Shown here piece after piece: positions 1,032 through 33,834 of a stretch of DNA of 64,000 bases. Origin of the DNA: Gimesia aquarii (GTDB lineage Bacteria > Planctomycetota > Planctomycetia > Planctomycetales > Planctomycetaceae); contig NZ_CP037920.1 of NCBI RefSeq assembly GCF_007748195.1, forward strand, positions 5,237,800 through 5,301,799, read 5' to 3'. The position numbers and the translations under genes were made by a program. The stretch's first letter is position 1; each line of letters begins with the position of its first letter. The notes below the pieces were generated by a model. It had not been told where the DNA came from, searched no databases, and was given only the letters and a program-made list of their open reading frames with translations.

Positions 1032-1070
1032 TCAAAACCGACTATTAAAAGTCTTCTATTGATCTGATCA

Positions 1071-4000
1071 TTAATTAACAAATAGAAATTCATTGCTGGC
1101 AATCAGAATCCGGCACAAGCTCTGCCAGGTTCGTCGTTCTTTTTCTTCTTCCGACATCTTTAATAATTGCAAATCCTGATTGTATTGACCGATATAATTT
1201 AACGCCTGATTGATTTCCTTCGCTGACGCCGGGCGACTGAATGTCCGCTCATAAATTCGATTAATTTTGGCAGAATTATCTAACTGCGTTTCATGAATGA
1301 TTTCATCTGCAAAGTCTTTGGTATGCTGCATCATAAAATCGCTATTCATCATAAATAACGCTTGTGGTGCCACAGTTGTATGCGTGCGATCTCCCGAGAG
1401 AACACTCGGATCGGCAAAATCAAATGCCTGCAATACTTCATATAAGGCACTTCGTACGATCGGTAAATAAACAGAGCGACGATTCGTATCATAGACCACA
1501 GGGTCAACATTAGCTGTGCTCGTCACGTACTTCCGATTTTCGACATTCAACAAGGACCCCCCCATTTCATTATCGAGTTTTCCACAAACGGCGAGAATCG
1601 AATCCCGAATCGCTTCTGCTTCCAGTCGTCTGCGATTCATACGCCAGAGCAATCGGTTTTCAGGGTCGATTTCTGCTAATTGAGGATGATAAGCCGTACT
1701 CATCTGATAAGTCGAAGAGAGCATAATTAAACGATGCATTGATTTGATGGACCACTTATTTTCAACAAATTGCACTGCCAGCCAATCCAATAATTCTGGA
1801 TGTGTGGGACGTTCACCAAGTTTTCCAAAATTGTCGGGCGTTCTGACAAGACCCTTTCCAAAATGCCAGCGCCAAATACGATTGGCCATTACTCGAGCCG
1901 TTAAAGGATGCTTGCCGCTGGTTAACCATTGCGCGAGTTTGAGCCGTCCGCTTTGTTGGTCATCGAGGGGAGTCTGATTTTCTCCTTCAATAATTCTCAA
2001 AAACTGCCGCGGCACTTCTTTGCCGAGCGTGAAGTGGCTCCCGCGGAGGTGTACCTTAATGTTTTCCGGTTTTTGTTCGGATACCGCCATTGCTGTAGGA
2101 TATTTGGGTAACGCTTTTTCCAAATCTTGCTTTGCTTCCCTTTTTTTCGTTAGGACGGTTTTGATTTCCGCAACAAAATATTTTTCGTGATCCGCGGGTA
2201 AAGCAAAGGGGCCTTTGGAATCATAGAGCACTTTGCGAATGGCTTCTCGCTCGACATCGATTAAAGAAGTCGTTTCTTTTTCGGCTTTACTTTTTTGAAT
2301 GGCCTGCCATTCTTTTTCAACGTCTGCAAATAGATCTCCATAAATCTGAGCTGCTTTTGTTAAGCGTTGTTTCAGAGGTAGATCATTAAGTATTTCAAAT
2401 CGTTGATAATTTGTGCTCAGATTCTCTGGAGTTTTTCCAGTCCGAATGATTTCATTCCAGACAAAAAAGGGAGACGATTTGCCCGCTGAATCTTTCGTCA
2501 GATAATCGGCCCATTGCATCGTAACGCTGTCAATGAGTTTTACTTGAGGCGGAGCCACCTCAGCAATCAGACTCTTGTTTTCATCTGGGACTTTGCGAGG
2601 TTGAGAGATCAGGATTTTATCGATATGCGGAAAGGGAGTTTTACTTTCAAGATGGACCTTGTTCTTCCCTTGCTCAAATTGAAAAACCCCTTCCATTTTC
2701 CATTGTTGGGACTTCGGCAACCAACTCCCCGTCACTTCGCCGGCTGCATTATTTTTGACTAATTTATCGTTGATAGACAACTGAAGCGGACGAGCTGTTT
2801 GTGCGGCATAACGGATTTCAAATTGATACAGGCCGCTATCAGGGACTTCAATTTCATACTCGGCAATATTGGGTAAAGGTCCGTTATTATAAATGACACC
2901 AATTCCCTCACCATATCCGGTAAAGGACTTCTTCACGTTACCCGTCTGATAATCTTCTGCTTCAACAATAATCGCAGAATGGGACGCATAAGCTTCTGGA
3001 TCATCACCAATCGGTTTTGTGGTTTTCAATAACTGATCGGCATGTTTTTTGATTTCTCCAGACAATAAGTAATCGGAAACCCGTTCACGTGCTAAATGCA
3101 GTAACTCGTCATCCGCTTTTTTCACAACAGATTGAATCTGAGAATCCAAGTCAGCGATTTGTTTTTGCTTCTGCTTTAGAGCTTTAATCTCACTGGGACT
3201 GGCCAGAATTCGTTCCTGCCAGCGTGCAACAACCTGGAAGTTTTCCATGGTCTTTGTGCTTTTAAAGATTCCCGCCAGAGAGTAATAATCTTCAATCGGA
3301 ATAGGATCAAATTTATGTGAATGACAGCGGGCACAACCCATGGTAAGCCCCATAAAAGCACGGCTCACGGTATCCAGTTGCTCATCCACAATATCCATTT
3401 GCATTTTGGTTTCATCATCTTCGGCCAGCATTTTGGCACCGATGGAAAGAAATCCTGTCGCCGTGATTTTCTCAAGCCGACTTTCATCAGTCGTTTGATC
3501 AGCCAGGATATCACCCGCCAACTGCTCCTGCAGGAACTGATCGAAGGGCTTATCCTTATTAAATGCAGCAATCACATAATCGCGATATCGAAATGCGTTG
3601 GCATATGCTAGATTTTCATCGAGACCATTCGAATCGGCATACCGGGCTACATCAAGCCAATGACGTCCCCAGCGTTCGCCGTATCGGGGAGATGCGAGTA
3701 AGCGCTCAATGACTTTTGCAAATGCATCCGGGGAATCGTCTTTGAGAAACTGCTCCACTTCTTCGCGCGTCGGTGGCAAACCGATCAAATCAAATGTGGC
3801 GCGTCGAATCAGAGTTTGTTTATCTGCGGGCCTGGCAGGAGAGGCCTGCTTCTTTTCCAGTTTTGATAACACAAAGAAATCGATGGGACTTTTGGCCCAT
3901 CCCCTGTTTTTTACTTTGGGAATTTCTGGTCGCTTTGGTGACTGAAATGACCAGAATTCTTTCTCTTTCTGACTAAAAAGTGGGCCATCATATTGGTTCG

Positions 4001-4421
4001 TTTCCGTATGAACTATTGGCTTTGAGTTAGGCCAAACCGCTCCCATCCGAACCCATTCGGTCAAGTCACGAATTTCTTTTTGCGAGAGCTTTTCTTTCGG
4101 CGGCATATGCACCTGGCCGCTATGGTTCACCGCACTAATCAAAAAGCTCTCTTTAGGCTTTCCGATGACGATTGCAGGACCACGATCTCCCCCCTTCAGT
4201 AAACCAGACAGGGAATCAACCCGCAAACCGCTCTCAACAGAATCCTCACTGTGGCAGTCGTAACACCGATTAATGAATAACGGTCGGATATGCTTTTCGA
4301 AAAACGCCTCTTGTTTAAGATCGGTATCCTCAGCTCCAGGCAAAGCCATGGGTGCGAATACCACAGTAAAGAATCCAAAGGCTACTGAAAGCATGCGATT
4401 CATTGCAGAAGATCCAAACAT
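1071..4421 (-). CDS. PSD1-type planctomycete cytochrome c protein (PSCyt1-DUF1549-DUF1553) with inserted CBM6-like domain
   Basis: This 1116-residue exported protein starts with a signal peptide (residues 8-30; M1 and M7 are both possible starts). A PSCyt1 haem-binding domain follows, with the c-type motif CYDCH near residue 53, then DUF1549 (about 175-385) with a second motif, CARCHSHKFDPIP. DUF1553 fills the C-terminal third and contains HPLTARVMANRIWRWHFG. Between the two DUFs, about residues 480-610, is a beta-sandwich segment beginning IIVEAEDYQTG and ending near HIDKILIS, which resembles CBM6/35 carbohydrate-binding modules. The CxxCH motifs indicate covalent haem and a redox role in the periplasm or at the cell surface; the substrate is not known. 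The insert suggests the protein docks on a polysaccharide. It is followed by its DUF1501 partner. Confidence 0.92.
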   Translation of the reverse strand: MFGSSAMNRMLSVAFGFFTVVFAPMALPGAEDTDLKQEAFFEKHIRPLFINRCYDCHSEDSVESGLRVDSLSGLLKGGDRGPAIVIGKPKESFLISAVNHSGQVHMPPKEKLSQKEIRDLTEWVRMGAVWPNSKPIVHTETNQYDGPLFSQKEKEFWSFQSPKRPEIPKVKNRGWAKSPIDFFVLSKLEKKQASPARPADKQTLIRRATFDLIGLPPTREEVEQFLKDDSPDAFAKVIERLLASPRYGERWGRHWLDVARYADSNGLDENLAYANAFRYRDYVIAAFNKDKPFDQFLQEQLAGDILADQTTDESRLEKITATGFLSIGAKMLAEDDETKMQMDIVDEQLDTVSRAFMGLTMGCARCHSHKFDPIPIEDYYSLAGIFKSTKTMENFQVVARWQERILASPSEIKALKQKQKQIADLDSQIQSVVKKADDELLHLARERVSDYLLSGEIKKHADQLLKTTKPIGDDPEAYASHSAIIVEAEDYQTGNVKKSFTGYGEGIGVIYNNGPLPNIAEYEIEVPDSGLYQFEIRYAAQTARPLQLSINDKLVKNNAAGEVTGSWLPKSQQWKMEGVFQFEQGKNKVHLESKTPFPHIDKILISQPRKVPDENKSLIAEVAPPQVKLIDSVTMQWADYLTKDSAGKSSPFFVWNEIIRTGKTPENLSTNYQRFEILNDLPLKQRLTKAAQIYGDLFADVEKEWQAIQKSKAEKETTSLIDVEREAIRKVLYDSKGPFALPADHEKYFVAEIKTVLTKKREAKQDLEKALPKYPTAMAVSEQKPENIKVHLRGSHFTLGKEVPRQFLRIIEGENQTPLDDQQSGRLKLAQWLTSGKHPLTARVMANRIWRWHFGKGLVRTPDNFGKLGERPTHPELLDWLAVQFVENKWSIKSMHRLIMLSSTYQMSTAYHPQLAEIDPENRLLWRMNRRRLEAEAIRDSILAVCGKLDNEMGGSLLNVENRKYVTSTANVDPVVYDTNRRSVYLPIVRSALYEVLQAFDFADPSVLSGDRTHTTVAPQALFMMNSDFMMQHTKDFADEIIHETQLDNSAKINRIYERTFSRPASAKEINQALNYIGQYNQDLQLLKMSEEEKERRTWQSLCRILIASNEFLFVN

Positions 4422-4975
4422 CTATTTATTTTAATCTGAATTACCTGAGCATATCCATTATCTTAAGGGCTGGAAAGCCCTTAGACTTGCCCAAAACGAC
4501 CTCCAGCCAACGATTATATATTATATATAATATGAACTGCCAAGTAAAATCAACTCTAGATGAGAGAATCTGGCTCACTTTTTACATAATAAATCAGAGT
4601 GACCGCTAAACATCAAAATAAGGCCAAAAATCGTGATCTTACAATTAGCCTTTCAACGAAGTCAGCTTGACTCTTCAGAGGATTCTTGAAAAGAAAATCT
4701 AATTCATTTCAGAAAACCAGATAGATCCTTCACCCGCAGATTCAGATCTTACTGGATATCACCGGCCAGGCCTCTACCAAATCATCATGGCATGGTGCGA
4801 ATTTGCGCGGGTCGATTCTTGGGGTCCCCTTCTCTCAGAGCATCTAGCATCCAAAAGAAGGGCCACCACATTTTTTGAATTGATTTCTGGCATCGCTGCA
4901 CATGATGTGGATCACACGGGATTCCCAAATATTGTACCATTCAGAAAATCCCGACTGAACGAACTGCTATTCCAG
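4422..4975. other. Intergenic region, no gene recognised
   Basis: This 554-bp stretch lies between the 5' end of the PSD1 gene and the 3' end of pheT, both on the minus strand. It includes a very AT-rich run near 4512-4531 that could serve the PSD1 promoter on the minus strand. I see no convincing intrinsic terminator after pheT. The short open frames here show no recognisable protein features. Confidence 0.5.
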
Positions 4976-7432
4976 CTATCGTTGAACTGCACCGTGCTCT
5001 GAGTGGAGTTGCTTAACAACATAGTCCATTAGTTGCTGTGCCTCGCCGGAAGTCAGAGAATATGTGTCATCGCGGAACAGCATGCGAATTGTCAAGCTCA
5101 TCGCACCGTCCCCTACACTTTCACCGACAAAGGTATCGATACAGATAACTCTCTCAAGCCTCGGCTGTAATTCAACCACTGATTCCGTTTCTTTTCGCGG
5201 CTCAATTTCCAAATTCTCTACGGCAGATGCAAACGCGTTTTCAAGTGATTTTTCAATTTCTGCATAGCGTAAATCGATGGGAACCACGATCGAAATATCG
5301 CGGGCAATCACCTGAGTCCGTGCCAAACCAGCAAACATTTTGGCTGGCGATTTAATTCGGTTGAGTGCGGAGATATCTAATTCGAATCCATAAAGTGGAA
5401 CGCGCGCACGATCTTTCATGCCTAAGACATTCAAGTCGATTCGGCCCAATGCACCAATTCGCTGATCACCGTGCTTTAGCGCCGCGAATTCTTCACCACG
5501 GTATCCGTGAGCAGGCTCATCACCCTCAAATGTGATTTCATCCACACTCATCTGAGCAAGCAGGTTTTGAACAAGCCCTTTTGCTCGTAGGAAATCGATT
5601 TCTTTTTCAGAAGCGATCCAGGCAGAATCATTCACAACTCCACCCAATACTCCACCAATCATCCAGCGTTCATCGATGTCATCCTGGTTCTGTCGAAATG
5701 TGCGGTCGATTTCGAAGAAACGGAAATTACTGGCACCGCGACGTGCGTTCCGTTCCACAACTTCAACCAGGCTCCCCACCAGACTTTGTCGTAGTGAAGT
5801 CATCTCCTTGGAAATCGGATTCTGAACCTGAATCCGTTCGCCCTGCCATTGACTGAATGATAACGCGAGCTTCTCGGTTGTGAGAGGAGGCGTACGACAT
5901 TCCAGAAATCCATTGCTGTTGAGAAAAGTCGCAATACCCGTTCTGAGACTATCCGTCTCAGAGATCCGGCCTTTGGTCGTTGTCGCGATCATCGGCTTCA
6001 TATCAATGCTGTCATATCGCAACATGCGAGCAACATCTTCAGCTAAAACGACCTCGTTATTGACATCGACACGCCAGGTTGGAACAGAAATCGTAAGATC
6101 ACTATCATGCGTCATCTCCAGCTTGGAAAGACACTCCTTGATCTGATCATCACTGATCTCCGCCCCCAATATTTTGGAAAGTCGACCGGAATCCAAAGTG
6201 AATTTCGTCTGTTCTCGCTCAGTGGGATAATTGTCGGTTACGTTCGAAGCAGGCTTTGCCCCAGAAAGCTCCGAATCCTGCAACAACTGCGCGGCTCGGT
6301 TGAAAGCCCCACTCATCATACCATTGGGGTCGGTTCCCCGCTCGAAGCGGTAGGAAGAATCGGTACTGATGCGAAGTTTTCTTGAGGAGGTTCGAATACA
6401 GACCGGATCAAAACAGGCCGCTTCCAACAAAATTCGTTTTGAATCTACCGTCGTCTGGGAATCCCAGCCTCCCATAATTCCCGCTAGCGCAATGGGCTTC
6501 TCCGCATCCGCAATGACCAGCGGTTGATGCGTGCCATCCACTTCGGCTTCATCCAGCAGCTTCAGTTTTTCTGTTTTCTGAATGCGACGGACTTCAATCC
6601 GATTCCCCTTCAATGAATCAAAGTCAAACGCATGTAAAGGTTGCCCCCATTCCAACATTACAAAGTTAGTAATATCGACGACATTATTAATCGGACGCAA
6701 ACCCGCCGTCTGGAGACGACTCTGTATCCAGTGTGGTGAAGTGCGGATCTGAACGTTATCAAACACCTGACAGGTATACCGGGAACAAAGCGTTTCATCT
6801 GCGATTTCAACAACGACGGACTCTGTCTGATTCTCAGCAGGGCTAATGACACGCTCGCTGGGATACTTCAGTTTCATATCGAGCACCGCTGCGACTTCGC
6901 GGGCAATACCAATCATTCCCAGACAGTCCGGGCGATTTGGCAAGACAGCCACTTCCACCAACGATTCCTGAAACGGTGAGACGGCTGGCAGACTCTCACC
7001 CAGAGTCGCTTCATCTTGAAAGACCTGTAAGCCATCTGATTTTGCAATCATTCCCAATTCACCATCGAGACAGATCATCCCTTCAGAGCGAACCCCTTTG
7101 AACTTTCCTTCAGAGATCAAAGCACCAGTAGGCAGCTTCGTGCCGGCAATCGCAACAGGGACTCCCCAGCCAACTTCGACAGGATGCGCGGTAGCACAAA
7201 CGATCGTAATCAGTTTGCCTTTTTCGATTTCAACCTGACATTCAAAGTAATTGCCTGCTTCGTCTAATGGCTGCTTTTCCCGAATAAAACCAATCCGAAT
7301 TGGTTCCAGTGCATGCGAGAGGTCATGTTCTTCTTCGATTTCCAAACCAACCGTCATGAATGCATCAAGCAATTCGCTCTCTTTGCAATCTTCAGTCAGA
7401 TAATCGCGCAACCAACCAGTATTTATTTGCAT
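4976..7432 (-). CDS. pheT: Phenylalanine--tRNA ligase beta subunit
   Basis: This is the beta subunit of the cytoplasmic alpha2-beta2 phenylalanyl-tRNA synthetase, which charges tRNA-Phe. Its 818 residues match the long bacterial form. The order is the N-terminal MQINTGWLRDYL helix, an EMAP-II-like tRNA-binding domain (about 40-150), B3/B4 editing domain, B5 domain (about 400-480), the catalytic-like core, and a C-terminal ferredoxin-fold anticodon-binding domain starting near ARTQVIARDISIVVP and ending YSLTSGEAQQLMDYVV. The start is an ATG preceded by a purine-rich AGAGAGTAAG. It lies 54 bp downstream of pheS on the same strand, the standard bacterial pheST order. Confidence 0.98.
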   Translation of the reverse strand: MQINTGWLRDYLTEDCKESELLDAFMTVGLEIEEEHDLSHALEPIRIGFIREKQPLDEAGNYFECQVEIEKGKLITIVCATAHPVEVGWGVPVAIAGTKLPTGALISEGKFKGVRSEGMICLDGELGMIAKSDGLQVFQDEATLGESLPAVSPFQESLVEVAVLPNRPDCLGMIGIAREVAAVLDMKLKYPSERVISPAENQTESVVVEIADETLCSRYTCQVFDNVQIRTSPHWIQSRLQTAGLRPINNVVDITNFVMLEWGQPLHAFDFDSLKGNRIEVRRIQKTEKLKLLDEAEVDGTHQPLVIADAEKPIALAGIMGGWDSQTTVDSKRILLEAACFDPVCIRTSSRKLRISTDSSYRFERGTDPNGMMSGAFNRAAQLLQDSELSGAKPASNVTDNYPTEREQTKFTLDSGRLSKILGAEISDDQIKECLSKLEMTHDSDLTISVPTWRVDVNNEVVLAEDVARMLRYDSIDMKPMIATTTKGRISETDSLRTGIATFLNSNGFLECRTPPLTTEKLALSFSQWQGERIQVQNPISKEMTSLRQSLVGSLVEVVERNARRGASNFRFFEIDRTFRQNQDDIDERWMIGGVLGGVVNDSAWIASEKEIDFLRAKGLVQNLLAQMSVDEITFEGDEPAHGYRGEEFAALKHGDQRIGALGRIDLNVLGMKDRARVPLYGFELDISALNRIKSPAKMFAGLARTQVIARDISIVVPIDLRYAEIEKSLENAFASAVENLEIEPRKETESVVELQPRLERVICIDTFVGESVGDGAMSLTIRMLFRDDTYSLTSGEAQQLMDYVVKQLHSEHGAVQR

Positions 7433-15630: not shown

Positions 15631-15802
15631 TTTGACTCACACACACCACATTCAAGAAAAATATCGATTGAATCACTGGCTAACCTGTAGTAAACATCAA
15701 TATTTTTCGTGTCTTTCATTGGAAGAAAAAAGAAGTCATGTCGAATTTTGAGTTTGTTCCAGCCTATTGTGCATTTTAAGAAGGTTAAAGAGGAGTTCGA
15801 TT

Positions 15803-17110
15803 ATGAATTTTCAAAAAGCCTTTTTAGTAAGTGCCATGAGTGCTTGTTCGATCATAAATAATTGTGATCTTTTAAATGGTCAGGAAAATTGTCAGACTGC
15901 GCCAGCATTCAAATGGACTCCATTGATGAGTGAGCAGTCCATTTCGCTAAAGTGCGAGGATTGTTCCATATTAGAGTTTGGAAAATCCTTGAATCAAGCA
16001 CGCGGTGCTCAGAATTTTCCGCTTTCATTTGATGATTATGATAACTACCTAAAAAATGGCTCACTTGCTCTTTCAAAAGAAGTTCTGGATAGAAAAATTT
16101 CACTTAATCTGAATCGAGTTCCATTCTGGGATGCGGTTGGTGGGATTGCGTCTAAGACCAACTTAGGGATTTTGACCGATATTGATGGTTATCCCTATCT
16201 GACTGACGGTCTAGATACACCAAGCAATCACTGGGAAGTTGTTGGCCCCATGTTACTACGTGTGAATTTTGAATTTCCGGAGAAAGAAACTTCTGGTATC
16301 GAGGGGAAAGATAATATTGAAAAAGCAACCCATTTAGAACTGCGGTTCACCTATGGTGATGGAGAAGCCGATCGCTTCGATATGAAACTGAATGAGGTAG
16401 CAGTTATGACGAAATCGAAGCAATTACATCCCGTTAAGCTCAAACGATATTCTGATGGTACACGGTTTGGAAAGATACCATTTGGCCAGGACGAAGTAGC
16501 CATGATTCGTGGCAAAGTGATCGCGAATGTCGCAACGAAATTGCTTTGGTTAAGAATTCATCCCAACTCTATTTGTCAGGACAAGGATTTTGGATTACGA
16601 GCAAAGTGTAGCGAAGTGAAATCAACAAAAGAGTTAATACTTCGCCGAACCAATCGCACTGGAAAGGGTGTCGGTAAAGGGTTTGGAATTAATGGCACAA
16701 CATACTTACCTTCCAAAGGACACGAAAAAATATACTACACAACCATTGAACTCGAGTGGAAGACAGACATCACAGAGAAGCAACAGAGCAGATTGGCAAA
16801 TCAAGTTTCGTGGGATCGTCTTGATACGAATGAAGTTAATTTTATCGAAAAAATAATGCAGGATAATCTCATCTTAGATTTTGTTCGGAATAGACCGAAC
16901 CAAATCAAAACTACCGATGGCAAGGTGCCAGATCGCTCTAACTTCTTCGCAGCAGCACCAAACTCTTTTGTTGAAACGAATATAGATAAAATATTGATTA
17001 CACTTTTTTCAGAAGACCGTAACAAAATTAATATCTGCCACAAATTACTTTTTGCACGCAAGGGTCTACTTAAAGAGAACTTTACAGTAAGCACTGGATT
17101 TGGGAATTAA
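15803..17110 (+). CDS. Secreted protein of unknown function with STN/secretin-like N-terminal repeat
   Basis: The start is ATG 15803, preceded by AGGAG (15791-15795), giving 435 residues; the longer frame from TTG 15767 has no such support. A signal peptide (MNFQKAFLVSAMSACS) leads into a short region whose pattern (SLKCEDCSILEFGKSL, then KISLNLNRVPFWDAVGGIA) resembles secretin/TonB short N-terminal (STN) folds found in planctomycete envelope proteins. The remaining roughly 300 residues are beta-rich with no family I recognise. The gene is more AT-rich than the neighbouring oxidoreductase and has no operon partner, so recent acquisition is possible. Function cannot be assigned. Confidence 0.75.
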   Translation: MNFQKAFLVSAMSACSIINNCDLLNGQENCQTAPAFKWTPLMSEQSISLKCEDCSILEFGKSLNQARGAQNFPLSFDDYDNYLKNGSLALSKEVLDRKISLNLNRVPFWDAVGGIASKTNLGILTDIDGYPYLTDGLDTPSNHWEVVGPMLLRVNFEFPEKETSGIEGKDNIEKATHLELRFTYGDGEADRFDMKLNEVAVMTKSKQLHPVKLKRYSDGTRFGKIPFGQDEVAMIRGKVIANVATKLLWLRIHPNSICQDKDFGLRAKCSEVKSTKELILRRTNRTGKGVGKGFGINGTTYLPSKGHEKIYYTTIELEWKTDITEKQQSRLANQVSWDRLDTNEVNFIEKIMQDNLILDFVRNRPNQIKTTDGKVPDRSNFFAAAPNSFVETNIDKILITLFSEDRNKINICHKLLFARKGLLKENFTVSTGFGN

Positions 17111-19836: not shown

Positions 19837-21375
19837 ATGACTCATTCAATACAAGATGTCTTACAACGCATCGGCGTTCCCGGTCAGCCCTCCGCAGTTG
19901 GTATTGGAACCACCTGGCAAGCGGGCGCGGGAGAAGTCCTGACAGGAAAATCGCCCATTGATGGCGAGACGTTGGTCACGTTACAGGAAGCCACGCTCGG
20001 CGATGTCGGTCTGGTTGTCGACACCGCCAAAAATGCCTTTCTGAAATGGCGACAAGTCCCCGCCCCCCGACGCGGTGAATTCGTACGCTTAATCGGCGAA
20101 GCCCTGCGCGAACACAAAGCAGACCTGGCCGCGATCGTCAGTTGGGAAGCTGGTAAGATCACGCAGGAAGCATTAGGGGAAGTCCAAGAGATGATTGACA
20201 TCTGCGATTTTGCGGTCGGCTTGAGCCGTCAGCTTTATGGATATACCATCGCCAGCGAACGTCCGGGGCACCGCCTGATGGAACAATGGCATCCATTGGG
20301 TCCCATCGGAGTCATCAGTGCGTTTAATTTCCCGGTTGCGGTCTGGGCGTGGAACTCGATGCTCGCGTTTGTGTGCGGAGATTCGGTGATCTGGAAACCT
20401 TCAGAGAAAACGCCTCTTTGTGCGATTGCCTGTCAACAAATCGTCAACAATGTTGCACAGGATTTCCCCGAGGTCCCCGACGGCATTTCGAACCTGCTCG
20501 TCGGACGCGCGGAAATTGGCAAAGCGTTAACAGAACATCACGAAATTCCATTGATCTCGGCAACGGGATCGATCCCCATGGGCCGCGCTGTTGCCAAAAC
20601 TGTCGCCGGTCGCCTGGGACGCAGCCTGCTGGAATTAGGTGGCAACAACGCCATGATCGTCACCGAATCCGCAGACCTGGAAATGACCGTTCGTTCTGCG
20701 CTCTTCTCCGCCGTTGGCACCTGTGGTCAACGTTGCACCACACTGCGTCGTCTTATCGTCCACGAAAGTATCGCAGACCAATTACTGAACTCACTCAAGA
20801 ATGCCTACCAGCGATTGCCCATTGGAAATCCCTTGAGTACAGGCACGCTGGTTGGGCCCCTCGTTGATCAGGCTGCGCTCGATGCCATGCAACACGCGCT
20901 GCGAACTGCTGAAAGTCAGGGGGGCACAGTCCACTATGGGAACCCCATTTTGGAAGATGTTCCCGCAGGCGGCTGCTACGTGCATCCGGCGATTGTAGAG
21001 ATGCACAGCCAGACCGAAATCGTGCAACAGGAAACATTCGCCCCCATTCTGTATGTCATGCGCTATCGCACGCTGGAAGAAGCATTCGAAATGCACAACC
21101 AGGTTCCGCAGGGGCTTTCGTCAGCCATCATGACAAATGATATCCGGGAAGCAGAATTGTTCATTTCACCCGTCGGATCAGACTGTGGTATCGCCAATGT
21201 GAATGTCGGCTCCAGTGGCGCGGAAATTGGCGGCGCCTTTGGAGGTGAAAAAGAGACCGGCGGCGGGCGCGAGTCAGGCTCTGATTCCTGGAAAGCCTAC
21301 ATGCGACGCACGACAAACACGATCAATTATTCTACCGAGTTGCCGCTCGCTCAAGGCATCGAATTCAATCTGTAA
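19837..21375 (+). CDS. ALDH7-type aldehyde dehydrogenase, likely alpha-aminoadipate semialdehyde dehydrogenase
   Basis: The protein is a 512-residue aldehyde dehydrogenase. The NAD-binding region has GVISAFNFPVAVWAWN and IWKPSEKTP; the catalytic pair is Glu266 in LELGGNN and Cys300 in GTCGQRCTTLRRL. The GQRCTT context and the C-terminal GGEKETGGGRESGSDSWK are characteristic of the antiquitin/ALDH7 branch, which oxidises aminoadipate semialdehyde to aminoadipate. The gene starts 8 bp after the saccharopine-dehydrogenase-like gene, so the two enzymes plausibly perform consecutive steps. It converges with a lipoprotein gene 13 bp downstream, with no obvious terminator between them. Confidence 0.93.
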   Translation: MTHSIQDVLQRIGVPGQPSAVGIGTTWQAGAGEVLTGKSPIDGETLVTLQEATLGDVGLVVDTAKNAFLKWRQVPAPRRGEFVRLIGEALREHKADLAAIVSWEAGKITQEALGEVQEMIDICDFAVGLSRQLYGYTIASERPGHRLMEQWHPLGPIGVISAFNFPVAVWAWNSMLAFVCGDSVIWKPSEKTPLCAIACQQIVNNVAQDFPEVPDGISNLLVGRAEIGKALTEHHEIPLISATGSIPMGRAVAKTVAGRLGRSLLELGGNNAMIVTESADLEMTVRSALFSAVGTCGQRCTTLRRLIVHESIADQLLNSLKNAYQRLPIGNPLSTGTLVGPLVDQAALDAMQHALRTAESQGGTVHYGNPILEDVPAGGCYVHPAIVEMHSQTEIVQQETFAPILYVMRYRTLEEAFEMHNQVPQGLSSAIMTNDIREAELFISPVGSDCGIANVNVGSSGAEIGGAFGGEKETGGGRESGSDSWKAYMRRTTNTINYSTELPLAQGIEFNL

Positions 21376-27519: not shown

Positions 27520-29259
27520 CTATTTCTGAACGGCAGCAGGTTGTGTGACTGCTTCATACGAATCACCAATGACGAGCCGATCCAGAAAAAGCGAATCGGT
27601 CACTTCAGTATATTGCCCGATCCGCATGCCTAGAGCGTTAATCGATTTCAGGAGCTTCCCCTCTTTCGGTAGGTTCACAACAACATCCGGAGTTTCTACC
27701 CGATCACCAACCGGGTTCACCCAGACCTCCAGATGATTAAAATGAGGGGCATTTTTCCTGGCAAGATGGCCTACCAGCAAAAACGTTTCATGATCGATGG
27801 GCTCCTGAAATAAGACTTCATCTTTCACAGTAAAACGAGCAAAGAACTGCCCCTCTTTAAACCCGACACTCGGCACCAGGGAATGGCTGTTTCCCAGACG
27901 GCCCTTTGAATCATCAAACCAGAGGCCAAAAAAGTCATCTCCATCCAAACCATGATATTGGACCAGGACGCTGAAATAGAAATCATCCTTAAGTGGTGTT
28001 TCCAGTTTGCGGGCCATCCGATGTGCGAGTGAAGGATAGGCATGATGACGACCGCGGGCCTCTAAGATCATCGGCCCCCCATCCAGTCCTCCCCATTGCA
28101 TTCTTTTCTCAGGAACCATCAAGCGGGTAAAATTTTGATCGACCCACCAGCCTTCATGATCGAATCCGATACCACCGTTTTGTTGAAATAGCGAAGTCGA
28201 CGGATATTCAAAATCCTCACCCACCAGAATCCCCGCAGGCAATGCGGAATTCTCTTTGATGAGCGAAATTTGATTCAATGGCTGGTGATTCTCAAAATGA
28301 ATTGTCTCTTGCGGCGGATAGTTACCGGACTTCGCCGCGACGAGTTGTTCGAGCGTCGGCACATCTGCAAACTTCGCTGGCGTCACACTGATTTCTGCCC
28401 CCTGAACTGTTCCGTTCGAAAACCGTAGTGCCTGGCTGGCCTTGAGGTTGGCAAGCTTCTTGTTCGCGGACATCACCGGTTTCACATCAACTTCGCCTTC
28501 AAACACATGCACTTCCGCTTCGCCTGACCGATCCACAACGGTACCAAACCGTGTTCCCAAATCAACAATTCGTATTTTGGAAGTATCCACAGAAAACCCC
28601 TGCGCCTCATCAGGCACATACGCAGCCAGTTTTCCATGATGCAGCAGTGCATTCAAAGGAGAACGGAATTCGATCTTCGCCGGACCTTCTAAGACAACTC
28701 CTGCCCCACTCTGAAAATGGATGCGGGCAATTCCCGATTTCAACCACAGAGATTGCCCTGTTTTAAACTGAGTGCCATAGGGAATGTCTTCTTCGAGATC
28801 GTCATGTCCCCAAACCGCATCTTCCGTATCGAGTAGCATACCGACGTAGTCGGGGCGAGAGGCGATTTGGTTCTCTTGTCGGGGCGGCACTTTCTGGTTC
28901 AACCAAACAACAGCACCGACCAACAGAACCACCATGACTAACGCGATCCCTCGCAAGCGAAAAGAAAATCGACGGGAAGCTGGGAGCTCCGCGGAAGGGA
29001 TTCCCAAATGAGTTGTCTGACTTTCGTGAGACAAATTTTCCTGATCTACAACATTGATTCCTTCCGGAACTGATTCATACAAGCTGGCAGACAAGAGTGA
29101 ATCGAGATGAATTTGATTCGTATAATCTTTAATGAGATCAGGATACGCATTGAGAATCTCGGTCAGCCGCGCGTCTTGATCTGTCGTCAACTGTTTTTCC
29201 AGGAGACGGCAGGTCAGAGCTTCCAGTTCTTTGCGAATGGCATCATTGGGTTGATTCAT
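27520..29259 (-). CDS. FecR-domain anti-sigma/sensor protein with C-terminal LamG-like domain
   Basis: The ATG at 29259 overlaps the sigma-factor stop codon (ATGA), so translation is coupled; this gives 579 residues. A cytoplasmic N-terminus of about 100 residues ([22 protein letters not shown]), one membrane helix (about 103-120, [17 protein letters not shown]), a FecR domain (about 145-290; [27 protein letters not shown]) and a LamG-like domain (about 340-575) follow. By analogy with FecI/FecR it would hold or activate the adjacent ECF sigma factor in response to an envelope signal. The LamG-like ectodomain suggests the signal is a carbohydrate. No zinc-binding anti-sigma motif is visible. 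Confidence 0.9.
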
Positions 29260-29786
29260 AAATGCGCCTCCTGGGCAACCGTCTTTTGAATACACTCCAT
29301 GAGTGTCTTACGAATCCGATACAAGGTCATCGAAACCGCATCCGCCGAGCGCCCTGCTTGCGAAGCGATCTGATTCACGGGTATCGACTCACAATATCGG
29401 TTTTCTACCAACTGACGATGTTCCGGCGAGAGCTTTTCCATACAATATGTGAGCGCCTCAGCGTGTGTTTTTGTATTGACCGCCTGTTGTGTGGCGATGA
29501 CAGCGATCTGCTCCAGCGTCCGATCATCGAGGGCCGCCTGTCCGTGATTCCGTACCCGCTTAAAAAACGCCATCGCCTGCAGTTGAGCAATCCGACACGC
29601 CCAAGGCGTGAAATCTAATCGCCAGTTATACTCGGCCCGTTTCCGCCACAAAACGGTATTCGTTTCCTGCAACACATCATCCACATCCGCGGCCCGACGA
29701 ATCAACGCCATTAACAAACCACGCAATACAGGTTGGCTGGCTGCAATTAAAGCGACGTATTCTTCATCAAGTTCCTGATTCTGCAA
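29256..29786 (-). CDS. ECF-type sigma-70 family RNA polymerase sigma factor
   Basis: The protein has 176 residues from a TTG start, with AGAAGG about 9 nt upstream. Region 2 is visible as LIRRAADVDDVLQETNTVLWRK and LDFTPWACRIAQLQAMAFFKR. Region 4 is an HTH (LSPEHRQLVENRYCESIPVNQIASQAGRS in part), with SADAVSMTLYRIRKTLMECI recognising the -35 element. It belongs to the planctomycete ECF type found with FecR-like partners. It is the first gene of a tight minus-strand run ending near 21389, and probably directs transcription of that operon and others. No sigma-autoregulated promoter could be recognised upstream. Confidence 0.93.
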   Translation of the reverse strand: MQNQELDEEYVALIAASQPVLRGLLMALIRRAADVDDVLQETNTVLWRKRAEYNWRLDFTPWACRIAQLQAMAFFKRVRNHGQAALDDRTLEQIAVIATQQAVNTKTHAEALTYCMEKLSPEHRQLVENRYCESIPVNQIASQAGRSADAVSMTLYRIRKTLMECIQKTVAQEAHL

Positions 29787-30149
29787 AACGAAAAACCTTC
29801 TCTGGCCTCAAGCCGATGAATCTACGTCAAAACAAAACACCGTGTAAGTTCATTAGATCAAACCCCACCAATCTAACGCACATTTTTTAAAAAAGATCTT
29901 TTTAATGCTCTCTGACAGTGCTTTGGAATAGCTTTAGTTTCATGAACTATTGCAAAAACAAAGATAGTATGGTTGTCAGAATAAGTCGTTAAAAGTTCTA
30001 AGCAATAATGGGCTAATAGATCAGCGATATTTAATCATGGATAAAATGGAAAAACTTTAACGATTAGTTGACATATTGACATAACCAACACATAATAGCA
30101 AAAATCCAGTATACAAAATTTATATTTATACTAGATTTAGGAACTCAAA
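29787..30149. other. Divergent intergenic region
   Basis: This 363-bp AT-rich region lies between the minus-strand sigma-factor operon and the plus-strand island starting at 30150. Apart from a good sigma-70-like promoter for the island at 30068-30096, I see nothing recognisable in it. Confidence 0.5.
30068..30096 (+). promoter_or_regulatory. Sigma-70-like promoter for the 30150-32767 genes
   Basis: A perfect -35 hexamer TTGACA (30068-30073) is followed after exactly 17 bp by CATAAT (30091-30096), one mismatch from the consensus -10. A second TTGACA overlaps at 30076-30081 but has no well-spaced -10. Transcription would begin about 45 nt before the ATG of the first island gene. This is predicted from sequence only. 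Confidence 0.55.
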
Positions 30150-30755
30150 ATGCCCAGGTATGAAGAAATTCGGGATCAATTCAAAACTGGTGATATCATC
30201 TTATTCTCTGGAAAAGGTGCTTTTTCAAGTATGATTAAATTGTTTTCCGGAGGAAAATGGTCACATATAGGAATGGTTATTCGTCTTCCAGATTTTGACG
30301 ATGCAGTACTACTTTGGGAATCTACTACACTAACAAATACATCTGATGTAGAGTTCAATAGCAGCATCAAAGGTGTACAGTTAGTTGCACTAAGTGAAAG
30401 AATTTCACGATATGCTGGAGAAATTTCCCTAAGACCGCTGAACAAACCAATTAATGAATCTATGTATTCAGACCTTTCTCAACTACGTCACAAGCTGTCT
30501 AGGCGCCCCTATGAAAGAGATGAATTAGAGCTATTGCGATCTGCTTGGGACGGAATTGCAGGGGCTAACAGTGAAGATCTCTCAAGTGTGTTTTGTTCGG
30601 AGCTAGTGGCAGAAGCTTATCAGTCAATGGGCTTGTTACCAGAGCCTCCAGTTGGGTTACCTTCAAACGAATATACGCCTCTTGATTTTTCTGAAGCAAG
30701 AGAATTGAAGCTTCAGGGCGACTATCGTTTGAAAAGAGAAATTTCTATTACCTAG
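30150..30755 (+). CDS. YiiX-like permuted NlpC/P60 papain-like hydrolase
   Basis: The 201-residue protein has AGGA 8 nt before the ATG. FKTGDIILFSG at the N-terminus, WSHIGMVI with catalytic His39, and VFCSELVAEAY with catalytic Cys149 show the permuted papain-like order (His before Cys) of the YiiX/YebB and LRAT-like branch of NlpC/P60. Such enzymes act on amide or ester bonds in peptidoglycan, lipids or proteins. There is no signal peptide or membrane segment, so it appears cytoplasmic unless exported in an unusual way. It is the first gene of an AT-rich three-gene island; the next gene begins 14 bp downstream. Confidence 0.8.
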   Translation: MPRYEEIRDQFKTGDIILFSGKGAFSSMIKLFSGGKWSHIGMVIRLPDFDDAVLLWESTTLTNTSDVEFNSSIKGVQLVALSERISRYAGEISLRPLNKPINESMYSDLSQLRHKLSRRPYERDELELLRSAWDGIAGANSEDLSSVFCSELVAEAYQSMGLLPEPPVGLPSNEYTPLDFSEARELKLQGDYRLKREISIT

Positions 30756-30769
30756 CTGGATAAGGTCTT

Positions 30770-31825
30770 ATGAATAAGAAGATAGTAGGCAGGAAGGTGA
30801 AAACAACTATGGCGGATACAGATACAACTCAAGATTCATCGAATAAAACTAATCCAGTTTGGGGAACTCAATACTTACCATATATCTTCTTGACGGCTGG
30901 GCTCCTATTAATAGTTTGGTTGATTTTACGAAATGAACCTTTCAAAGAAGCAATCTTTGCTTATGCACTACGTGTTTTTCTTAGCGTTTGTTCTGCATAT
31001 TCCGTACAAGTTGTTCCCGGTTTTCTAAATCTTGAAATTAGTCAGAGGGGACGACGAATTACTGCAGGAGGTGCTTTTGCCTTCGCAATAATTACATTTT
31101 TTGGAGCTCCTGTTATTGCACCAACTTTAGATCCAGAAAACATTAGAAGAGAACCCCCTCGTACTTTTCCATGTAGAGTATGGCTACCAGAAAATTATTC
31201 AAGCAAACAGGTTGGATCGCTTTACTCAACATCTGCTCGTGAAGCGGGCTTTTGGGTTAGTAACTTAATTGATCAACATGAAGCAGATAAAGCTGGTTAT
31301 TTGTCTCAACAACCTAATCTACTAAGAAATGTTGTCAAAGAGCTACAAACCACCTCGCTTAAAATTGATTTTGTTGAAAAAAAGAAAGACGAAAAAAATA
31401 AAGATGAATTAGTCAAAATCAAGGAAGAATTAAACCAACAAACAAATAAAGTGCAAGAAATTGCTAATCAATTAGGTGAATTATTACCTAGTACTCAACC
31501 ATTAATTGTTATAGCGGAGACAGATCCATTTGAAAGTCCGTATGATGCTTTTAGTGCATCAGTCTCTACACTAACTTCAGCAACTGGCAATCCATCTGGC
31601 TCACATAAGATCTCTGCGTTTCTAGTTCGCAAAAAAGATGCAAAATACACATTTGAACCATTACTAGTATTACACAGCTCACAGTTAGAACGTAATACTA
31701 TTCACGTCCCAGCATCAAACTCTGGTGATCAAATTCTTCTAGTAATTAAATTTATATTGAAAAAAGATGATCCATTTCCAAAACGTGCAGACCAGATACC
31801 TGTCCAAATAATTCCATTGAACTAA
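30770..31825 (+). CDS. Membrane protein of unknown function with coiled coil
   Basis: This protein of up to 351 residues could also start at an ATG at 30809, preceded by GGAAGG. I recognise no family. Three hydrophobic segments are visible at about 36-53, 62-85 and 97-117, followed by a soluble domain of about 230 residues. That domain has a charged coiled coil (about 195-240, with KEELNQQTNKVQEIANQLGELL) and a C-terminal beta-rich region. It lies 14 bp after the hydrolase gene and 42 bp before the Cys-rich protein gene, so the three are probably one transcript. AT-rich codon use sets it apart from the flanking operons. It may anchor the other products to the membrane, but this is inference. 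Confidence 0.7.
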   Translation: MNKKIVGRKVKTTMADTDTTQDSSNKTNPVWGTQYLPYIFLTAGLLLIVWLILRNEPFKEAIFAYALRVFLSVCSAYSVQVVPGFLNLEISQRGRRITAGGAFAFAIITFFGAPVIAPTLDPENIRREPPRTFPCRVWLPENYSSKQVGSLYSTSAREAGFWVSNLIDQHEADKAGYLSQQPNLLRNVVKELQTTSLKIDFVEKKKDEKNKDELVKIKEELNQQTNKVQEIANQLGELLPSTQPLIVIAETDPFESPYDAFSASVSTLTSATGNPSGSHKISAFLVRKKDAKYTFEPLLVLHSSQLERNTIHVPASNSGDQILLVIKFILKKDDPFPKRADQIPVQIIPLN

Positions 31826-31867
31826 GTATAATTATAAATTTAAAGCTTAACTAAAGGGAGACAAGTA

Positions 31868-32767
31868 ATGTTTCGACAATTGACTGGTGTATTAGTACTA
31901 TTACTTACTTTGACAAACCCCTCATATAGTGATGTTGAGCTTTCAGGAATTGTTACTAGTAATGATACTCAAAAACCTATTAAGGGCGTTTTTATTAGGG
32001 TAAAGGCAGAACGATCAGGACGTACCTTGGGAAATATAGGAAGAACTGATAAAGATGGAAGATACTCCATTAAAATCAAAGAAGTAGACGAAGCAATTTT
32101 TCTAGATTTTAATCCAGGTGATCGAACAAATAACGCACCCGACAGTGTTAGACTATTATCTGGAAGTAAAAAACAACAAATCAACAAAGTTCTTAGAGCT
32201 GGTAACATTGTAAGAGCTAGATCGATGGCTCCACGTTCTTGCCCAAAACCTTGTTGCCCAAATCCTTGTTGCCCAAATCCTTGTTGCCCAAATCCTTGTT
32301 GCCCAAATCCTTGTTGCCCAAATCCTTGTTGCCCACCAATAGAAAAATCGGAGAAACAGAAAATTGAGCCGATTCCTGATGGAAAATCAAACTTTAGAAA
32401 GATGTCCTCTAATGATAGATTAAAAGATGCTCTGGAAAAACTTGCTTCATTTGAGGATTTTGGCTATCGATTGATACAGATTAATAATCCTGATGAATTT
32501 GATATTCAAATGAAAAAATCTATTGTAAACTATATGCGTAATATGCCACTCGCTAAAGAATTAATATACGGTGAAGACCAATACAGCCAAGGTCTTTATA
32601 ATGCCTTAACTCGAAAGAGAGAAATCGTATTTTCTCTCTATAATCTAGAAAATATTGAACAAACTAGAGTCAACTCTCCAGAACCTTGTTGCCATGTTTA
32701 CAAATGTAAAAAGCGATATCGAAAATCGAGAAAATGTAGAGTTCGTAAAAAATGCTGGCGTCGATAA
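31868..32767 (+). CDS. Secreted cysteine-rich protein with CCPNP tandem repeat
   Basis: The protein has 299 residues; GGGAG sits 7 nt before the ATG. A signal peptide ([20 protein letters not shown]) precedes a carboxypeptidase-regulatory-like beta domain (about 24-115; [18 protein letters not shown] and [13 protein letters not shown]). Then come five perfect CCPNP pentapeptides closed by CCPP (about 127-158), a helical region without recognised homology, and a basic Cys-containing tail ([18 protein letters not shown]). Paired cysteines spaced this way could bind metal or cross-link molecules by disulfides outside the cell. It is the last gene of the island, ending just before a strong terminator. 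Function is unknown. Confidence 0.78.
32249..32335 (+). repeat. 15-bp coding tandem repeat (CCPNP units)
   Basis: Five consecutive identical 15-bp units (CCTTGTTGCCCAAAT) and a sixth truncated to 12 bp lie inside the 31868 gene and encode PCCPN. Identity at the DNA level, not only the protein level, indicates recent expansion by slippage or unequal exchange. Confidence 0.95.
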
Positions 32768-32806
32768 TTAACTTCTTTCACTCAATTAATATTAACTCTT
32801 ACTGTT

Positions 32807-32845
32807 AAAAAAACAGAGTGATGAGAAATATCACTCTGTTTTTTT
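32807..32845. terminator. Intrinsic terminator after the AT-rich island
   Basis: A perfect 12-bp stem, AAACAGAGTGAT (32811-32822) with ATCACTCTGTTT (32830-32841), and a 7-nt loop are followed by a T run to 32845 and preceded by an A run. It could work in both directions. It lies 40 bp after the Cys-rich gene and also 70 bp before the 3' end of the convergent esterase gene, so it probably terminates both transcripts. Confidence 0.9.
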
Positions 32846-32914
32846 GTTTGTGCCAGAAACGCATCCTCCAAAGTATTCAATTTTCATGAATTCAAAGTTC
32901 GTTTAGTGAGATAA

Positions 32915-33796
32915 TTATATCTGAAACGCCCGTTTCGTAAACTCCAACATAAGCGGAATAGATTCACTCACCACAGAAAACGTATGCCTTCCTTTAAGCA
33001 TGATCCATTCGGGCGGCTGCTTCAGTTCGATCAGCCGTTCTCGAAAATGTTCGTTCATCGTCCGGTCGAATGCCTTGTCAGCGGTGACGATTAATACGCA
33101 CATCCCCTTCAGCTTCTCGGCCCGCTCAATCGGATTAAACTGTTTCCAGACTGCTTCGTCTGAACCAAAGCGGGCGGTGGGCACACGGTACGACTGGCCT
33201 TTTGGTAAGCCGTTTCGCGGAAAATCGAGTAACCCAATCATCGAACTGACGGCAATAAATCGATCGGGATGGCGTGCAGCAAAATTCACACAACCAAAGC
33301 CCCCCATCGACCAGCCGGCAATCGCCCATTGTTGACGTGCAGTGGGTAACTGAAATTCCTGAGTAACAACAGCCAGCACTTCTTCAAGATACATTTCATA
33401 AACGTCTGACTTGCGCACCGGCGAATTAATGTACCAGCCATCATCGCCATCCGGCAGGATCACAAACAGACCGGAATCGAGCAACTGCTTGCGAACGCCC
33501 TTGTCTTCAATTAAAGAGAGTTCATGCCGACCACGACCATGTAGAATCACTAACATGCGACGTTTTTGCTGTTTGATCTGTTGCCGATGTTTTGGCAAGA
33601 CGACCACAGCCCGTTTCCGTTGCTTGAGATTCTGGCTGAAAAACGTCACTCCCAGAATCCGTGGAAAGAGCTCCTCAGTTTCGAGCTTCGTCTCCTTAGT
33701 TTTCGGATTCTCTGCCATAACGAAACCAGCATTAAATGACAGTAAAGAAAGAACAATCCAGATTATCAGAAAATTCAAAAACAAACGCTGTTGCAT
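32915..33796 (-). CDS. Secreted alpha/beta-hydrolase esterase
   Basis: Starting at ATG 33796 (an upstream in-frame TTG at 33811 is less likely) gives 293 residues. A signal peptide (LFLNFLIIWIVLSLLSFNAGFVMA) leads into an alpha/beta-hydrolase domain. LVILHGRGRHE gives the oxyanion region, GWSMGGFG the nucleophile (Ser163), VTADKAFD the acid (near Asp240) and GRHTFS the catalytic His271. The arrangement matches putative esterase/feruloyl-esterase D-like proteins, which remove acyl groups from exported substrates, often polysaccharides. It stands alone and converges on the island terminator. Confidence 0.88.
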   Translation of the reverse strand: MQQRLFLNFLIIWIVLSLLSFNAGFVMAENPKTKETKLETEELFPRILGVTFFSQNLKQRKRAVVVLPKHRQQIKQQKRRMLVILHGRGRHELSLIEDKGVRKQLLDSGLFVILPDGDDGWYINSPVRKSDVYEMYLEEVLAVVTQEFQLPTARQQWAIAGWSMGGFGCVNFAARHPDRFIAVSSMIGLLDFPRNGLPKGQSYRVPTARFGSDEAVWKQFNPIERAEKLKGMCVLIVTADKAFDRTMNEHFRERLIELKQPPEWIMLKGRHTFSVVSESIPLMLEFTKRAFQI

Positions 33797-33834
33797 CAAG
33801 TTACTACCCAAGCTGAATCAATGGAAAGATTACT

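Follow-up and report, generated by a model that had tools for sequence, protein, structure and literature searches.

A clade-specific accessory operon of Gimesia aquarii that combines a permuted NlpC/P60 enzyme, a membrane protein, and a probably secreted protein

Permuted NlpC/P60 enzymes of the YiiX type occur widely in bacteria, but what they do has been described as poorly understood or unknown (PMC7387801, PMC3142127). The pocket of YiiX contained a fatty acid, the PPNE proteins have a hydrophobic S1 pocket, and the S1 pocket of YiiX was argued not to suit a peptide (PMC3142127). LnsA, a permuted-type NlpC/P60 enzyme, depends on the membrane protein LnsB for the acylation of lipoproteins (PMC7387801), and the effector Tox-Act1, which has a permuted core, is a phospholipase (PMC12994826). 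Here we describe an operon of Gimesia aquarii that encodes an enzyme of the YiiX type (gene 1), a membrane protein (gene 2), and a probably secreted protein (gene 3). It lies in a stretch of 64,000 nucleotides that we call the window (positions 5237800-5301799 of contig NZ_CP037920.1, from a genome consisting of one contig of 7.4 Mb). An operon that ties such an enzyme to a membrane partner and a probably secreted partner, and that has relatives, is a concrete place to learn the role of the enzyme.

A three-gene set at a variable chromosomal site

All three genes are on the + strand, with gaps of 14 bases between genes 1 and 2 and 42 bases between genes 2 and 3 (Table 1). The initial annotation had described them as a self-contained set that was more AT rich than both flanks and was bounded by a TTGACA-N17-CATAAT promoter and a strong intrinsic terminator. 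The composition is unusual and looks foreign. The GC content of the stretch that holds the operon (29907 to 32927) is 0.358, against a mean of 0.470 (standard deviation, 0.032) over the window in 3021-bp windows moved in steps of 100, and the lowest-GC window of this size begins at 29901, so that the operon is the AT extreme of the 64 kb. The GC content at third codon positions (GC3) is 0.294, 0.217, and 0.221 in genes 1, 2, and 3, against 0.484 (standard deviation, 0.052; minimum, 0.367, in the ORF at 15767 to 17110) in the 35 other long open reading frames (ORFs), the reference in both comparisons being the mechanically called ORFs and the sequence of the window rather than the whole genome.

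Genes 1, 2, and 3 were not detected at an E value of ≤1e-3 in any of 16 congeners, two of which are only 74 and 76% complete; the initial annotation had proposed a check for presence or absence in close relatives. The closest relative compared (G002), sister to the window genome (G000), has flanks that are 93 to 95% identical and carries at the position of the operon an unrelated stretch of ~0.9 kb with a 210-aa gene whose GC content is 0.34. Searching more widely, a pattern-based scan of the genomes of 84,980 species with an alignment of gene 1 returned 110 relatives. The titles of the 79 loci that were retained name proteobacterial, firmicute, cyanobacterial, and other records, and most have different neighbors. 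Genes 2 and 3 stood beside gene 1 in one of these 79 loci, L086 (JAJFIP010000299.1, positions 1 to 6374), the flanks inspected being at most 6 kb and many of them shorter where contigs end. L118 and L087 gave weak matches to gene 3 (E values of 1.7e-4 and 0.004) in its Cys-repeat part alone.

L086 is labeled as part of an Emcibacter metagenome-assembled genome. Its gene order, PSD1-FecR-sigma-three genes-esterase, is that of the window, which places the operon at the same chromosomal site, and L086 is sister to G000 plus G002 in the esterase, sigma factor, and FecR trees. It thus looks like a contig of a sister species that was misbinned; an alphaproteobacterial origin was considered and dropped, as the flanks match the synteny of the window. 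Judged by these sequences, the operon is a clade-specific accessory set that was co-inherited, and not one that is widespread or independently recurring. It may predate the split of G000 from G002 and have been lost or exchanged in the latter, or it may have moved sideways between G000 and L086; the species are too few to tell. Beyond the window, the full set of three families was found in one locus, which occupies the corresponding chromosomal position in a sister species; farther afield, just a pair resembling genes 2 and 3 was found.

That pair was found in a genome of the same class and another family (G095), where the gene of a 317-aa membrane protein overlaps the start of the gene downstream, which encodes a 194-aa protein with a CarboxypepD_reg match (E value, 1.1e-11). 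In single BLASTP comparisons with G095, the C-terminal domain of gene 2 gave an E value of 4e-9 and the N-terminal domain of gene 3 gave 8e-5. In the 19 kb inspected by eye, the pair has no gene-1 homolog beside it. Each match by itself is modest, but a gene order in common with the window makes a chance pairing less probable, and the pair is likely a real, if modest, echo of the operon. In a set of 119 genomes that included the window's own, gene 1 was found in three others (G040, G048, and G077), gene 2 in G095, and gene 3 in G075; the last match (residues 130 to 180, Cys repeats, one stop) was not counted as a homolog.

The esterase-flanked region could be read in 13 of the 16 congeners, with G005 (short contig) and G012 and G015 (no clear esterase ortholog) excluded, and none of the 13 loci had an 18-mer in common with the operon stretch. 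The sigma factor gene stands on the left in 10 of the 13. The left side consists of PSD1-type DNA without sigma and FecR in G010 and G003 and of the aldehyde-dehydrogenase-like gene found at 19837 to 21375 of the window in G006. ORF reading placed a 767- to 833-aa protein at the site in 11 of the 13, the copy in G016 having a GDSL-lipase match below the cutoff, and a relative of the gene seen in G002 (210 to 228 aa) was recognized by eye in 5; G013 has a leucine-rich repeat gene. The site between the conserved flanks is variable. In G009 (L049, 13669 to 16659), the site is occupied by a transposase of the Mutator family together with two SMI1/KNR4 genes. By Pfam scan the flanking genes of the operon encode an extracytoplasmic function (ECF) sigma factor, a FecR-domain protein, and an esterase, and ORFs elsewhere in the window were judged by eye to be PSD1-type, DUF1501-type, and sialidase-like; the neighborhood looks planctomycetal in character.

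Both signals named by the initial annotation were recovered. The promoter-like site is the strongest of 11 between 29700 and 33000; shuffles of that interval gave 11.1 sites at 9 or more of 12 matches, so a site count like the one observed is expected by chance, and the notable feature is the strength of this site alone. In L086 its -35 element is identical and its -10 element has one base changed. Folding of 32795 to 32850 gave an 18-bp stem with terminal U's at -20.3 kcal/mol (z score, -5.8; 0 of 200 shuffles equal), and it was this folding that located the hairpin, which is not in the list of the terminator scan itself. The sole Rfam match, GIR1 at 17.7 bits (gathering threshold, 100), was taken as chance.

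Table 1. Positions of the operon, its parts, and its flanks in the window
Feature	Position	Strand	Basis or remark
Gene 1	30150-30755	+	Permuted NlpC/P60 (C92, YaeF/YiiX-like) cysteine enzyme, 201 aa
Gene 2	30770-31825	+	Membrane protein, 351 aa; second possible start M14
Gene 3	31868-32767	+	Probably secreted protein, 299 aa
Promoter-like site TTGACA-N17-CATAAT	30068-30096	+	11/12 match
Intrinsic terminator hairpin	32806-32846	+	RNA folding and conservation in L086
Stretch absent from closest relative (G002)	29907-32927		Flank blastn stops at 29906 and restarts at 32928
Left flank, ECF-type sigma factor gene	29256-29786	-	Pfam scan
Right flank, esterase gene	32915-33811	-	Pfam scan; anchor for finding the locus in congeners
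Gene 2 TM module (aa 35-120)	30872-31129	+	Common to G314 TPR protein and G307 protein
Gene 2 C-terminal domain (aa 245-342)	31502-31795	+	Common to G095; BLASTP E value of 4e-9, single comparison
15-bp tandem repeat encoding CCPNP units	32239-32335	+	6.5 copies here, fewer in L086
Gene 3 3' end, nearly without synonymous change	32564-32767	+	3/204 nt differ from L086

The three proteins

Gene 1 matched Pfam PF05708 at an E value of 6.4e-6 and 26.8 bits, slightly below the cutoff of 27 bits, and its copy in L086 scored 21.4 bits. Profile comparison with structures gave Protein Data Bank entries 3kw0 (E value, 8.8e-11) and 2if6 (6.4e-6). The catalytic residues His39, Glu57, and Cys149 are in permuted order, with the His N-terminal and the Cys C-terminal. 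Among 67 aligned members (the window plus 66 of the 79 loci, 13 being left out for want of a clean ORF or for odd length), Cys149 was conserved in 67, His39 in 66, and Glu57 in 64, in agreement with the papain-like His39/Cys149 core first proposed for this protein, and Tyr121 occupies the conserved active-site Tyr column (Tyr in 44 of 67). Gene 1 is, on this alignment, a YaeF/YiiX-type permuted papain-like enzyme with its catalytic residues intact. It belongs to the lipid-pocket (PPNE) branch and, by analogy, acts most likely on acyl groups, given the lipid pocket of the family, the phospholipase Tox-Act1, and LnsA. For the same reason, its membership in the lipid-pocket branch (PMC3142127), peptidoglycan hydrolase is a less likely reading of gene 1.

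The closest relatives of gene 1 found outside the genus are gammaproteobacterial (64 to 65% identity). It clusters with L087 (Ectothiorhodospiraceae) and L088 (Microbulbifer) at a support of 0.994 in a midpoint-rooted tree of 75 sequences, and the copy in G077, a genome of the same class as the window genome, is just 38% identical; this placement points to transfer between phyla. A single distant match was found in plasmids, in a chromosome-sized Nonomuraea record. In 13 loci within L137 to L164, clostridial or bacillar by their titles, the gene-1 relative adjoins a gene of an ~700- to 745-aa protein family, co-directional or divergent. In G048 (L006, 469 to 3336), the gene-1 relative has on one side what reads by eye as a Mu Gam-like gene and on the other what reads as a gene of a trypsin-like protease.

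Gene 2 had been called an unrecognized membrane/coiled-coil protein, and it matched no Pfam family at the curated cutoff. Hydropathy identified hydrophobic regions at residues 35 to 53, 61 to 87, and 102 to 120, so that the protein is predicted to have three transmembrane (TM) segments followed by a helical middle and a C-terminal domain. Under the positive-inside rule, the K/R-rich N terminus and an RGRR loop between TM2 and TM3 would put the N terminus inside and the C-terminal ~230 residues outside. The part of the protein that spans the TM segments recurs elsewhere as a module, in G307 (a protein of 566 aa), in G314 (a TPR protein of 897 aa), and, more weakly, in G053 (a protein of 118 aa). 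When 314 genomes of the phylum were searched with the module, two had it (the window genome and G053). A profile of gene 2 found four genomes (the window genome, G095, G307, and G314) among 397 of the class and three among 95 of the family of G095, the matches in G307 and G314 being limited to the TM module. Gene 2 had no match in plasmid and phage records. In G307 (L083, 1511 to 10264), the cluster consists of a DO-GTPase2-like gene, two genes of small membrane proteins, the TM-module gene, and then a TPR-CHAT gene (CHAT E value, 1.1e-42). CHAT is a component of conflict systems. DO-GTPases are described as core parts of such systems, often membrane linked (PMC7159879). The link from the TM module to conflict systems is an association only, and we take it as a hint.

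Gene 3 has the CCPNP repeats of the secreted repeat protein first described. Its N-terminal domain gave CarboxypepD_reg matches at E values of 5.4e-4 to 6e-4, below the Pfam cutoff; its C-terminal end is rich in Cys, Arg, and Lys, with a tail of 29 residues that has 14 K/R and 1 D/E. By inspection it is no lipoprotein, because the first of its 18 cysteines is at residue 125. A start resembling a signal peptide was seen by eye in gene 3 and in its counterparts in L086 and G095, and gene 3 is probably secreted. A gene-3 profile run over 392 genomes of the phylum gave 18 matches, the window included; the 17 beyond it span 34 to 117 of 314 model positions, mostly in CCP-rich or CarboxypepD-like parts, and have internal stops in 6 cases. 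The top match among these 17, in G477, consists of a Pro/Cys repeat in the frame read and was not counted as a homolog, nor were the remaining ones, with their partial coverage and stops. Gene 3 was not found in plasmids.

How the operon may work and which readings survive

An apparently cytoplasmic enzyme, a membrane partner, and a probably secreted partner together suggest a trans-envelope module. Our tentative preference, held with less than even confidence, is for a clade-specific accessory operon, partly assembled by horizontal transfer at a variable site, whose products would be a membrane-tethered lipid acyl-hydrolase or acyltransferase and a secreted partner acting in envelope conflict or envelope modification. 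The product of gene 1 would be a cytoplasmic thiol acyl-hydrolase or acyltransferase working on membrane lipids or lipidated amines. Gene 2 would tether it at the inner membrane, with the N terminus in, three TM segments, and both its helical middle and its C-terminal domain out. The product of gene 3, once secreted, may contact the outer domain of gene 2 by way of its own N-terminal domain, which is immunoglobulin-like. A signal from outside, passed through gene 2, might then switch the enzyme and lead to modification of the envelope or to attack on the cell's own membrane.

Favoring this proposal are the catalytic residues, intact and conserved throughout the family; the fatty acid of YiiX, the hydrophobic pocket of the PPNEs, and the phospholipase Tox-Act1; the recurrence of all three genes in one order at one site in L086; the adjoining pair in G095; the grouping of gene 1 with Ectothiorhodospiraceae and Microbulbifer sequences; the conservation of gene 1 and the start of gene 2 against the divergence of residues 151 to 243 of gene 2 and of the first part of gene 3; and the TM module of gene 2 in the G307 cluster. 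What the sequences establish is the enzyme family with its catalytic residues, the order of the genes, their composition, their presence or absence, their co-inheritance in two species, and their divergence; the topology, secretion, contacts, substrate, and trigger are inferred. Several results weigh against this proposal. Of the 79 gene-1 loci, L086 alone has the full set. Single-sequence structure predictions (mean predicted local distance difference test scores of 39 for gene 2 and 43 for gene 3) were too poor for a fold search and give the proposed contacts no structural support. The hydropathy scan flagged a signal-like segment in the L086 and G095 proteins and none in gene 3 of the window, and the L086 copy of gene 3 has no Pfam match up to an E value of 0.01. 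The echo in G095 is weak at the level of a genome search, which gene 2 passes at only 4.3e-4 and which gene 3 as query does not pass at 1e-3, and the TM part of the G095 protein falls outside the local BLAST match. PADLOC 2.0.0 assigned 0 families to the three proteins. The DO-GTPase2-like match in G307 (E value, 2.2e-5) is below the cutoff, and the word "CHAT" does not occur in PMC7159879. The divergence of the operon between the two species has points on both sides.

Compared with L086, by our own counting script, the gene-wide ratios of nonsynonymous to synonymous change (dN/dS) are 0.17 for gene 1, 0.25 for gene 2, and 0.33 for gene 3; the flanks gave 0.11 (sigma), 0.18 (FecR), and 0.13 (partial esterase). 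All three frames are intact and, by these counts, under purifying constraint in both species. The ratio is below 1 for every gene, so diversifying selection is unsupported. Identity is 86% in gene 1, 87% in residues 1 to 60 of gene 2, 23 to 27% in its residues 151 to 243, and 50 to 53% in residues 1 to 92 of gene 3. Much of the sequence predicted to lie outside is the most divergent, but the pattern is imperfect. Residues 304 to 333 of gene 2 are 73% identical though predicted to be outside, and residues 233 to 292 of gene 3, likewise predicted to be outside, are the most conserved part of all at 97 to 100%.

At its 3' end, gene 3 is almost unchanged between the two species. This end has 2 synonymous changes in 41.7 sites, whereas the three genes together have 259.8 in 553; a 67-codon window this low was seen in 0 of 500 codon shuffles. 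Downstream, 7 of 37 aligned nt differ in the spacer, 0 of 40 (plus one gapped edge column) in the terminator, and 4 in the 68 nt past it, and the esterase differs by 13 to 14%. The 3' end folds slightly more stably than chance predicts on the + strand (z score, -2.46; 3 of 200 shuffles equal) and not on the other strand (z score, -1.08), and there was no other copy in 150 genomes of the family, the window's own included. A short recombination tract or a constraint at the nucleotide level is possible.

An unlikely but still reasonable alternative is that the operon performs a housekeeping-like modification of the cell surface, not conflict, in the manner of LnsA and LnsB, with the enzyme and its membrane partner acylating an exported protein, perhaps that of gene 3. 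The order of enzyme, membrane, and secreted genes fits, as do the 18 cysteines and basic tail of gene 3, and LnsA offers the precedent of an enzyme dependent on a membrane protein. However, gene 2 has no match to CPBP, the LnsB family, in Pfam up to an E value of 1; gene 3 has its first Cys far from the N terminus; and the hydropathy scan found no hydrophobic segment in gene 1.

It is possible, though again improbable, that there is no system at all and that three unrelated orphan genes, gained together or in turn, sit in a tolerant AT-rich site from which they are slowly being lost. Such a history would suit a site whose content differs in all 13 congeners read, the absence of the set from G002, the sister of the window genome, and gene-1 relatives that mostly have other neighbors and lack genes 2 and 3. 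It sits poorly with three intact frames at dN/dS values of 0.17 to 0.33, with the same order and terminator in two species, and with the similar pair of genes 2 and 3 in G095.

We consider it rather improbable that the operon is a three-part system of envelope surveillance of a new type. In such a system, gene 3 would provide a ligand or sensor that is secreted and Cys rich, and gene 2 a 3-TM receptor with a fast-evolving outer domain; the two would sense an invader, neighbor, or kin at the surface and release the membrane-tethered lipase of gene 1 on the cell's own membrane, with alleles exchanged at a fixed site between conserved flanks. If true, this would represent a new conflict system, directed at lipids, in planctomycetes. 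Fast drift explains the divergence as well as an arms race does, because the C-terminal part of gene 3 reverses the pattern and no ratio exceeds 1.

The initial annotation had speculated about an envelope-modifying or interbacterial element. An envelope role stays plausible, but the interbacterial part found no support in the three genes. A peptidoglycan hydrolase with a membrane immunity protein and a secreted carrier is very unlikely: the NlpC/P60 superfamily, the adjoining membrane protein, and matches to EssA (gene 2; E value, 0.0083) and BimA (gene 3; 0.0071), both far under the curated scores, speak for it, but gene 1 is of the permuted branch, in which the S1 pocket was argued not to suit a peptide (PMC3142127), and has no hydrophobic segment, and no toxin delivery domain, secretion module, or immunity gene scored above the cutoff in the three proteins, with the scanned flanks being sigma, FecR-domain, and esterase genes only. 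Phage cargo (a moron) left by a prophage is less credible still: gene 1 matches phrog_1128 (E value, 8.6e-10), the TM segment of gene 2 matches phrog_5814 (1.4e-4; likewise found in 2 of the 119 genomes), three phage records hold distant gene-1 relatives (25 to 30% identity), and the relative in G048 adjoins the Mu Gam-like gene, but no integrase or phage structural gene was recognized by eye in window ORFs of at least 150 aa, Pfam found no integrase or transposase in the three genes, the window has no tRNA, the boundary repeat of the operon stretch is 9 bp only and was not compared with chance, and none of the genes had a match in three pattern-based scans of viral contigs.

Comparison with described systems

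Among the matches listed by a keyword-limited literature search, there was no description of this gene set, and the three genes had no match to the MoxR/vWA, DO-GTPase, or STAND components of NTP-dependent ternary conflict systems. The DO-GTPase-centered conflict systems (PMC7159879) resemble the operon through the TM module of gene 2, which in G307 accompanies the DO-GTPase2-like gene and the TPR-CHAT gene; the operon differs in having no NTPase, GAP1, or CHAT match, and the link is by the module only. Like gene 1, the type VI secretion system (T6SS) effectors Tox-Act1 and TseH have a permuted catalytic core in which His and Cys are conserved (PMC12994826), whereas the three genes include no T6SS family or recognized immunity gene. 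The PPNEs (Peptidase_C92, YaeF/YiiX; BcPPNE, 3KW0; YiiX, 2IF6) are alike in the order of His39, Glu57, and Cys149, in Tyr121, in length, and in the structure-profile matches; gene 1 stands apart by scoring just under the family cutoff and by its membrane and secreted neighbors, which are absent from 78 of 79 related loci. LnsA and LnsB likewise pair a permuted-type NlpC/P60 enzyme with an integral membrane partner (PMC7387801). Gene 2 is not LnsB-like by Pfam, and the operon has a third, secreted component; furthermore, lnsA and lnsB are noncontiguous in S. aureus, whereas the genes described here are linked.

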